Below, piece after piece: positions 15,375 to 24,812 of a DNA stretch of 24,836 bases. The position numbers and the translations under genes are program-made. The DNA is from Candidatus Eiseniibacteriota bacterium (GTDB lineage Bacteria > Arandabacterota > Arandabacteria > JAGLYR01). Within the stretch, counting starts at the first letter, position 1. Every line of letters starts with the position of its first letter. The stretch covers positions 1 through 24,836 of the forward strand of contig JAGLYR010000016.1 of the NCBI GenBank assembly GCA_023132135.1, read 5' to 3'. The notes beneath the pieces were generated by a model. It was not told where the DNA came from, made no database searches, and saw only the letters and a list, made by a program, of their open reading frames with translations.

Positions 15375-15400
15375 AAAAAGGGCGACCCACCGGGTCGCCC
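15375..15400 (-). terminator. Intrinsic terminator after tsaD
   Basis: Arms 15380-15388 (GGGCGACCC) and 15392-15400 (GGGTCGCCC) form a perfect 9-bp stem with a 3-nt loop, followed on the minus strand by TTTTT (15375-15379). It closes the cluster that ends with tsaD. Nearly the same hairpin stands at 24573-24593 on the plus strand. Confidence 0.93.
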
Positions 15401-15413
15401 CTTGCTATGTTCC

Positions 15414-15448
15414 GAGGACTGGGGACTAGGGACTACGGACTAGGGACT
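15414..15448. repeat. Heptamer array between tsaD stop and its terminator
   Basis: Five 7-bp units: GAGGACT, GGGGACT, AGGGACT, ACGGACT, AGGGACT. Together with the adjoining 15449-15456 it makes a 34-nt block (15423-15456) identical, in reverse complement, to 24513-24546. It starts within a few bases of the tsaD stop codon. Confidence 0.85.
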
Positions 15449-15457
15449 TGTTCTAAC

Positions 15458-16477
15458 TTACGAACGGCCGCGAGTTTGCCCTTTCGCTCTCTCGCTCCTT
15501 GCCCTCGCGTCCATCTCCAACCCATCCCTCTCTCCTCTTGCCAGACGCTCCGTCCCTGCGGCCGCAACAATGGCTGCGTTGTCTGTGCATAGGATGGTGG
15601 GCGGGATTGAAACGCGGAGCCCGTAGCGTTCCGCTCGCTTTCGGACGGTTTCTCTCAGCGCCGTGTTTGCCGCGACTCCCCCGGCCAGGGCAATGGCCGT
15701 GGACCGGGTCTCGTCGGCTGCTCTAAGGAGCTTGTCCGCCAACGATTCGACCACAACCCTCTGGAAGCTGGCCGCTATATCCCGACGCTCCTCAAGCGTG
15801 GGCTTCCGCCCCAGACGTTCGATGTAGTAGCGGACGGAAGTCTTGATCCCGCTGAAACTGAAATCGAGCCCCCGGGGCAGCGGTGGCGGGAAGTCAACCC
15901 CCGCCGGGTTTCCTTCCCGCGCCAGCTTCTCCAGTTCCGGTCCTCCCGGATAGCCCAGTCCCAGCATCTTGGCTACCTTGTCGAAAGCCTCGCCGGCGGC
16001 ATCGTCCAGCGTTCCCCCCAGAGATCGCATGTCCACCCTGGAGGACACTAGAAACAGTTCCGTGTGTCCTCCGGAAACCAGGAGACAGACAAAGGGGACC
16101 TCCGCAGGAGGATCGATGAGGAAATTGGCAACAACGTGGGCCAGCAGGTGATCAACGCCCACGAAGGGGATACCACGGGCGTAGCCGAGCGCTTTGGCGA
16201 CAGAGACTCCCACGAGCAATGCGCCCACAAGGCCGGGGCGCTCGGTAACGGCCACCCCGTCAATCCTGTCCAGCGTTGTGCCCGCTTCCCGAAGCGCTTC
16301 ATCAATAGCGGGGAGGACCAGGCGAATGTGACAGCGCGAGGCCAACTCCGGAACAACGCCTCCGTACCGCGCATGGATCGGCTGCGCCATCACGACGTTT
16401 GAGAGGATCTCCGATCCATCCCGAACGACACCGGCGGCGGTTTCGTCGCATGAGGTTTCGATGCCCAGGACCAGCAT
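15458..16477 (-). CDS. tsaD: tRNA N6-threonylcarbamoyladenosine transferase TsaD
   Basis: TsaD transfers the threonylcarbamoyl group to A37 of ANN-decoding tRNAs, working with TsaB and TsaE. The 339-residue length is typical. Seen: the N-terminal LGIETSCDETA ASKHA-fold phosphate-binding loop, metal ligands His110 and His114 in VDHLLAH, SGGHT (135-139), GGVAANTALR and CTDNAA near the C-terminus. The ATG at 16477 has AGGG 8 nt upstream. It is the last gene of the cluster, 37 bp behind the YbbR gene. The last ~20 residues are a basic low-complexity tail (ARARSERAKGQTRGRS). Confidence 0.97.
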   Translation of the reverse strand: MLVLGIETSCDETAAGVVRDGSEILSNVVMAQPIHARYGGVVPELASRCHIRLVLPAIDEALREAGTTLDRIDGVAVTERPGLVGALLVGVSVAKALGYARGIPFVGVDHLLAHVVANFLIDPPAEVPFVCLLVSGGHTELFLVSSRVDMRSLGGTLDDAAGEAFDKVAKMLGLGYPGGPELEKLAREGNPAGVDFPPPLPRGLDFSFSGIKTSVRYYIERLGRKPTLEERRDIAASFQRVVVESLADKLLRAADETRSTAIALAGGVAANTALRETVRKRAERYGLRVSIPPTILCTDNAAIVAAAGTERLARGERDGLEMDARARSERAKGQTRGRS

Positions 16478-24357: not shown

Positions 24358-24385
24358 CACGGTGACGGGGTGACGGCGTGACGGG
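24354..24385. repeat. Octamer array starting at the stop codon
   Basis: Four 8-bp units, GTGACACG, GTGACGGG, GTGACGGC and GTGACGGG, include the TGA stop of the membrane protein gene (24355-24357). Confidence 0.75.
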
Positions 24386-24477
24386 GGTGGGCATTGTCGC
24401 TCTGTCCCCCCGGGTTCCATGGTATTGAGGGCCCCGCGGGACAAACACGGTGTCGGGTGGAAGGTTCAGAACCGGTG

Positions 24478-24498
24478 CTACGTGCCCCGTGCTTCGTG
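24478..24498. repeat. Short heptamer array of CGTG type
   Basis: Three 7-bp units: CTACGTG, CCCCGTG, CTTCGTG. Confidence 0.55.
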
Positions 24499-24512
24499 CA
24501 AGGAAAAGGGCA

Positions 24513-24553
24513 TTAGAACAAGTCCCTAGTCCGTAGTCCCTAGTCCGTAGTCC
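24513..24553. repeat. Heptamer array, second copy of the tsaD 3' block
   Basis: The leader TTAGAACA is followed by AGTCCCT, AGTCCGT, AGTCCCT, AGTCCGT and AGTCC. Positions 24513-24546 are identical in reverse complement to 15423-15456. Confidence 0.9.
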
Positions 24554-24572
24554 AAGGAGAAGGGCATCGAAG

Positions 24573-24598
24573 GGGCGACCCGGTGGGTTGCCCTTCTT
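24573..24598 (+). terminator. Intrinsic terminator, second copy of the tsaD hairpin
   Basis: GGGCGACCC (24573-24581), loop GGT and GGGTTGCCC (24585-24593) form a 9-bp stem with one G-U pair, followed by TTCTT. Orientation fits transcripts from the membrane protein gene ending at 24357, though 215 bp downstream. Confidence 0.8.
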
Positions 24599-24630
24599 CC
24601 CCCTGCTCTCGGCATTTGCTACCGCCATTG

Positions 24631-24812
24631 TAGCCTGGGTTATTCAGGAATCCCGTAGCGAGAGGGACGCAGGCTGTGACTGGCAAGGCGCGGGGTCGAT
24701 TTCGACCGGAGGCGTGACCTCTGGCCCCGCTGAGGATCGAAATCGGCGCCGCAACGCAGTCCAGGCACATCCTGCGACACTCGCAGCAGGGATTCCTGAA
24801 TAACACAGGCTA
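24631..24812. mobile_element. MITE-like palindromic element
   Basis: Terminal inverted repeats 24631-24654 (TAGCCTG then GTTATTCAGGAATCCC, split by one G) and 24789-24812 are 24 bp long with one mismatch. The arms keep pairing inward in broken form as far as TCGATTTCGA against TCGAAATCG, so the whole 182 bp could fold on itself around a short GC-rich centre. It codes for nothing. The outermost TA on each side could be a target-site duplication, in which case the inverted repeats would start at GCCTG. The source transposase is not in the window. Confidence 0.75.

Follow-up and report, generated by a model that had tools for sequence, protein, structure and literature searches.

T-tailed GTAG-type REP palindromes and polar heptamer arrays in a Candidatus Eiseniibacteriota genome

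Genes and repeats in the window

The window, i.e. the whole 24,836-nucleotide stretch that was analysed, belongs, as contig C68, to a genome of 3.4 Mb in 345 contigs. Sequence comparison within the window found two look-alike stretches with the same hairpin, copy A on the minus strand (15456-15375) and copy B on the plus strand (24513-24598), as had been described in a first-pass annotation. The 34-nt block reported there as common to the two copies (TTAGAACAAGTCCCTAGTCCGTAGTCCCTAGTCC) was indeed identical, but it had been placed before the heptamer array, whereas it already holds the first four heptamers; block and array are one object, with a period of 7 and 4.7 units in each copy (tandem-repeat analysis). 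Both copies had also been said to follow genes. Copy A started 1 nt past the tsaD stop codon and had its hairpin 57 nt past the stop. Copy B did not directly adjoin its gene: the block and the hairpin were located approximately 155 nt and 215 nt, respectively, past the stop, and GTGACGG octamers and CGTGCTA heptamers intervened. The 214-aa protein encoded upstream of copy B had no family match in profile searches, and no match was obtained in an Rfam search of the window.

Copy A was read on the minus strand as four consecutive parts. The heptamer block (15416-15456), consisting of TTAGAACA and an array of AGTCCCT, AGTCCGT and AGTCCCC units, was delimited by its sequence, the period-7 tandem and its genome-wide recurrence. 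It was followed by TCGGAACATAGCAAG (15401-15415), which, in comparison with the copies on contigs C282, C249, C310 and C239, is a degraded form of CGGAACAGAACATCGTAG, the left flank that moves together with the REP (repetitive extragenic palindrome). The REP palindrome GGGCGACCC-GGT-GGGTCGCCC (15380-15400) had 41 matches in the genome and was also found in and beside a gene for a REP-associated tyrosine transposase (RAYT) on contig C86. A T-run abutted the stem (15375-15379), and the longer tail TTTTTCCCTGCA of this copy was present exactly in three further copies and with one base changed in a fourth.

On the plus strand, the region of copy B comprised several modules. An array of GTGACGG-type octamers (24361-24386; tandem-repeat analysis) lay between the stop codon of the membrane-protein gene and the composite. 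The second heptamer class (CGTGCTT/CGTGCCC, 24475-24499), recognised by sequence, formed 28 arrays of at least three units in 1.2 Mb, and the joiner J (AAGGAAAAGGGCA, 24500-24512) was present there in 124 copies. The heptamer block of copy B, again TTAGAACA and an array (24513-24553; sequence and tandem-repeat analysis), was separated from the hairpin by AAGGAGAAGGGCATCGAAG, which differs from the corresponding TCGGAACATAGCAAG of copy A and contains the joiner J as AAGGAGAAGGGCAT (24554-24567; sequence comparison). The REP palindrome of this copy, GGGCGACCC-GGT-GGGTTGCCC (24573-24593; sequence, genome matches and folding), was followed by a weaker T-rich tail, TTCTTCCCCC (24594-24603). The next module (24631-24812) was an inverted-repeat element with the arms TAGCCTGGGTTATTCAGGAATCCC and GGGATTCCTGAATAACACAGGCTA. 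The inverted repeat is 24 nt long (TAGCCTGGGTTATTCAGGAATCCC), with the arms 134 nt apart, and its family (R4) had approximately 106 half-copies in 1.2 Mb. Its start, TAGCCTG, was also that of the commonest dispersed word in the fetched genome stretches, TAGCCTGCATTTCTCACCAG...TTTC, the core of which was present in 39 intergenic regions.

The two hairpins differed by one change, which gave a G-U pair, and GGGCGACCC pairs with GGGTTGCCC as had been pointed out. Folded as isolated short hairpins, copy A had −21.9 kcal/mol (z −4.0) and copy B −19.8 kcal/mol (z −2.5). The GTAG tag was diverged in both window copies (AGCAAG, with CAAG as the tag, in copy A; GAAG in copy B).

Two further repeats were observed in the window. 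The last ~27 codons of tsaD (15458-15540, minus strand) lie beyond the TsaD profile, which covered residues 3-312 of 339, and resemble a GCGAGGGC/GAGAGAGCG repeat of a type found beside other repeats (e.g. on C83); a repeat may therefore have grown into the end of the gene. A 39-nt tandem duplication (CCACCTCGTC...GGAGAG, 92% alike) was located near the end of another gene (1137-1214).

Recurrence in the genome

Searched across all 3.4 Mb, the first 20 nt of the block (up to three mismatches) had 37 matches against 1 for the reversed control, the four-unit heptamer array 80 against 0, and the hairpin 41 against 0, numbers well above chance. The genome-wide search proposed in the annotation thus yielded far more than the two window copies. 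None of seven further genomes from this class contained the four-unit array. Genes were called with a home-made script based on codon usage, the calls of which matched the evident genes of the window.

The hairpin as a GTAG-type REP

The hairpin is a GTAG-type REP. Complete copies began with GTAG and GGGCGACCC-GGT-GGGTCGCCC, and most left ends were GTAG in each of the two groups of REP copies. The traits given for GTAG-REPs (PMC3733652) were found here for the hairpin: a multicopy intergenic palindrome of 20-40 nt, an unpaired GTAG (or GGAG) on one end, inverted pairs, and a RAYT gene with the same REP. The palindrome was 21 nt long, and nearly all of its 41 matches were intergenic, the RAYT copies excepted. 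Head-to-head pairs with a conserved spacer were present on C86 (twice), C171 and C310, and a pair with another spacer on C327; in their arrangement these inverted pairs match the REPIN form. In three copies (C121:178-205, C189:476-500 and C63:3667-3691), the loop was longer by GGT triplets (GGTGGTGGT), which suggests loop expansion by this triplet.

The transposase gene was found on contig C86 (L060, 922-1911), as a frame with several in-frame REP copies inside and further copies on both sides. Its product matched the NCBIfam family REP_Tyr_transpos (NF047646; E 1e-18, 67.5 bits, below the curated cut-off of 80), and the translation contained the HUH motif HLH (within MPNHLHG) and a tyrosine within RQYIFDNP. 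Pfam Y1_Tnp alone missed or barely reached this transposase because the REPs interrupt the frame, and a RAYT so decorated may be inactive.

Filled and empty sites were found in a resident repeat. Five copies of it were empty, TTGGTCTCGGCC-CTGAGCTGG or close variants, and three were filled at that point with the flank (C)GGAACAGAACATC and a REP or REP pair. The simplest reading is that the filled sites arose by insertion; the inserts contained no heptamers. The suggestion that the hairpin is dispersed and mobile was therefore supported by a REP with its transposase and by these sites. Several unrelated genomes also contained the identical palindrome, in one case within a RAYT-like frame. A similar transposase frame with a REP inside was observed in an unrelated genome (L062), and one IMG/VR viral contig (L283, 3689-3716) carried an exact T-tailed GTAG-REP.

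T-runs and orientation relative to genes

T-rich DNA was located directly past the stem in ~21 of the 41 REP copies. The tails TTTTTCCCTGCA and TTTTTCCCCTCC were common to several unlinked copies; in part at least, the T-run is thus duplicated along with the element. Orientation and polarity were counted in 1.215 Mb of stretches (36% of the fragmented genome), part of which had been picked because repeats were present there. Relative to the preceding gene, T-tailed REPs were sense in 14 cases and antisense in 4 by a strict count, and 18:5 (p 0.011) by a broad count, corrected at inspected sites where copies and gene ends overlap (C17, C116, C335, C294 and C12), i.e. the sense direction favoured in the annotation. 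The bias was moderate (78%, ~20 sites). Other dispersed repeats were unbiased, with 206 sense and 193 antisense copies (Fisher p 0.017 against the broad T-tailed set).

Among T-tailed intergenic hairpins other than REPs in the same stretches (n = 38), the sense direction was favoured 27:8, which makes it probable that this genome employs intrinsic termination. Copy A has the structure of an intrinsic terminator (−21.9 kcal/mol and TTTTT) and belongs to a set with the 14:4 sense orientation; the tail of copy B is weaker. Given their alignment with the preceding gene, T-tailed REPs are plausibly mobile intrinsic terminators, judging from structure and orientation only. Termination is no property of the REP as such, because copies with no T-run exist. 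The sense bias could owe something both to the loss of antisense copies by selection and to strand-specific insertion during replication.

Heptamer arrays, joiner and polarity

Arrays of AGTCCCT/AGTCCGT with at least three units numbered 70 in 1.2 Mb, and 66 of them were intergenic. With 31 sense and 34 antisense arrays, they had no orientation relative to gene strand, an outcome that the annotation itself had named as speaking against its proposal, and which here concerns the heptamer part of it. The cassette that it had drawn, with block, heptamers and hairpin as a single 3'-end unit, was not supported either: heptamers were directly upstream in the same orientation in only 9 of 26 T-tailed hairpins, 12 of the 26 were REPs with no companions, and most of the 70 arrays had no REP hairpin.

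The arrays were strictly polar relative to palindromes. Within 150 nt to the left of the 70 arrays, REP, R5 (TTGAAGCCCCCGGAGGGGGCGG), B (CCCTCACCCTACCCTCTCCC) and R4 (TAGCCTGGATTATTCATGAA) were all absent, while they were present on the right 9, 12, 5 and 9 times, respectively. The second heptamer class of the genome, CGTGCTT, gave 0 on the left against 6, 3, 2 and 3 on the right. Heptamers beside a T-tailed REP always pointed toward it, and the REP faced either way. The joiner AAGGARAAGGGCAT adjoined arrays on the right and resembled the mobile REP flank, to which it was linked by bridging variants (AAGGAACAGAGCAT). The polarity may go back to insertions nested on one flank of the joiner, to growth of the array at the left end of a mobile unit, or to copying through RNA or single strands in which the left end was lost. 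Insertion of J after GTSC, with heptamers as targets, was considered and dropped: many J copies, as counted with a loose pattern that has many chance matches, had no GTSC at the left, and the filled sites follow TCGGCC.

Outside this genome, AGTCCCT/AGTCCGT arrays were present in at least 115 stretches from many phyla, including, among the matches listed, Acidobacteria, Chloroflexi, Cyanobacteria, Planctomycetes, Gemmatimonadetes, Desulfuromonadales and others. They often adjoined sister heptamers, and mixed arrays with AGTCCCC units were present in cyanobacterial loci. The joiner was absent from the cross-phylum heptamer loci among the matches listed, and from viral contigs.

Comparison with known systems

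The hairpin is like the GTAG-REPs with RAYTs, known as REPINs or BIMEs (PMC3733652, PMC2817692, PMC3116915), in the GTAG tag, the ~20-nt palindrome, the inverted pairs, the intergenic sites mostly downstream of genes, the copies inside genes, and a transposase gene carrying the same palindrome. Unlike in known GTAG-REPs, many copies here are T-tailed, some are tagless, and the neighbours are unusual, chiefly heptamer arrays that are polar and have a fixed joiner. The string gtagggg is absent from the main text of PMC3733652.

The heptamers are few-unit, dispersed, intergenic seven-base tandems, as are the cyanobacterial and xanthomonad G-rich heptamers or STRRs (GGGGA(C/T)T and GGGNATC; PMC4692102). 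They resemble the Nostoc GGGGACT repeats, and their complement AGGGACT differs from GGGGACT by one base, close but not identical to these families; unlike STRRs, they have mixed units (CCCT/CCGT/GCGT), a constant one-sided joiner and an association with palindromes. The TAACTGA heptamers of Beggiatoaceae (PMC4679880) likewise form dispersed intergenic arrays common to distant phyla by no known mechanism, but differ in sequence and are located just upstream of start codons.

That terminators are not usually dispersed as repeats, the premise of the annotation, was too strong, with Neisseria uptake sequences and REPs as precedents. Some Neisseria DNA uptake sequences act as transcription terminators, and as dispersed short repeats with this second role they are comparable with the element described here, the terminating role of which is presumed. 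The Neisseria hairpin consists of two inverted uptake words spread by transformation (PMC2397512), whereas here it is a single transposase-linked palindrome.

Interpretation

The locus is probably a mosaic of dispersed repeats from several families, with a REP moved by a RAYT, a T-tailed sub-lineage of it acting as terminators, and heptamers as a separate family. The RAYT would, at least formerly, have mobilised the GTAG-REP plus a CGGAACAGAACATC-type left flank, and one sub-lineage would have the T-run directly past the palindrome. Where a T-tailed copy landed or survived in the sense direction behind a gene, the RNA would fold into an intrinsic terminator, and copied REPs would thus probably account for part of the terminators in this genome. 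The heptamer arrays would be a different, cross-phylum tandem repeat; since they lie in fixed orientation left of the joiner and palindrome but have no gene-strand preference, they would accompany the mobile element without belonging to the terminator.

The strict heptamer-palindrome polarity, the order and near-identical sequence kept in some composites, such as the two window copies, and the likeness of J to the left flank that accompanied the REP at filled sites would also be expected of one composite mobile element, which would move with all three parts (heptamers, joiner, palindrome) and terminate transcription of the preceding gene. This is improbable, as the parts are found apart, with lone T-tailed REPs and arrays lacking a REP, the right-end palindromes belong to four unrelated types, the REP is inverted behind the array on C73 and C189, the arrays have no gene orientation, and the filled-site insertion carries no heptamers. 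A looser version, polar composite mobile elements that always have heptamers and joiner at the left end and an interchangeable palindrome at the right end, the T-tailed REP version being a mobile terminator, is tentative and rather doubtful; if it were true, this version would give genes ready-made 3' ends.

Two further readings take up the sense bias. IS200/IS605-type transposases act on single-stranded DNA in a strand-specific manner, and the bias, counted at few sites, might stem from insertion into one particular strand behind the replication fork, given genes that run in the direction of replication, with no terminating role for the REP; this is rather unlikely, considering that other dispersed repeats are unbiased and that the bias belongs to the T-tailed copies, which fold into textbook terminators. 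Plain selection, by which ordinary terminators became alike through gene conversion or convergence and are not mobile DNA, would account for the sense preference of T-tailed copies and fit the 38 other T-tailed hairpins with their sense bias, but is highly improbable in view of the identical GTAG-tagged palindromes in and beside a transposase gene, the copies lacking a T-run, the inverted pairs, the filled and empty sites, and the same palindrome sequence in unrelated genomes.

Overall, the repeat mosaic is a REP/BIME-like one with a RAYT and a heptamer family, mostly of known kinds; what is new is a sub-lineage of REPs with T-tails and the rule of polarity among heptamers, joiner and palindrome. 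A described mechanism for the origin of cross-phylum dispersed heptamer repeats was not found in the literature, and the fixed polarity of array and palindrome could help explain how such repeats originated in many phyla. By a rough scaling from REP-enriched stretches, REPs may make up about a fifth of the strong hairpins genome-wide, and an appreciable part of the terminator-like hairpins in a genome can thus come from a transposase-linked palindrome.
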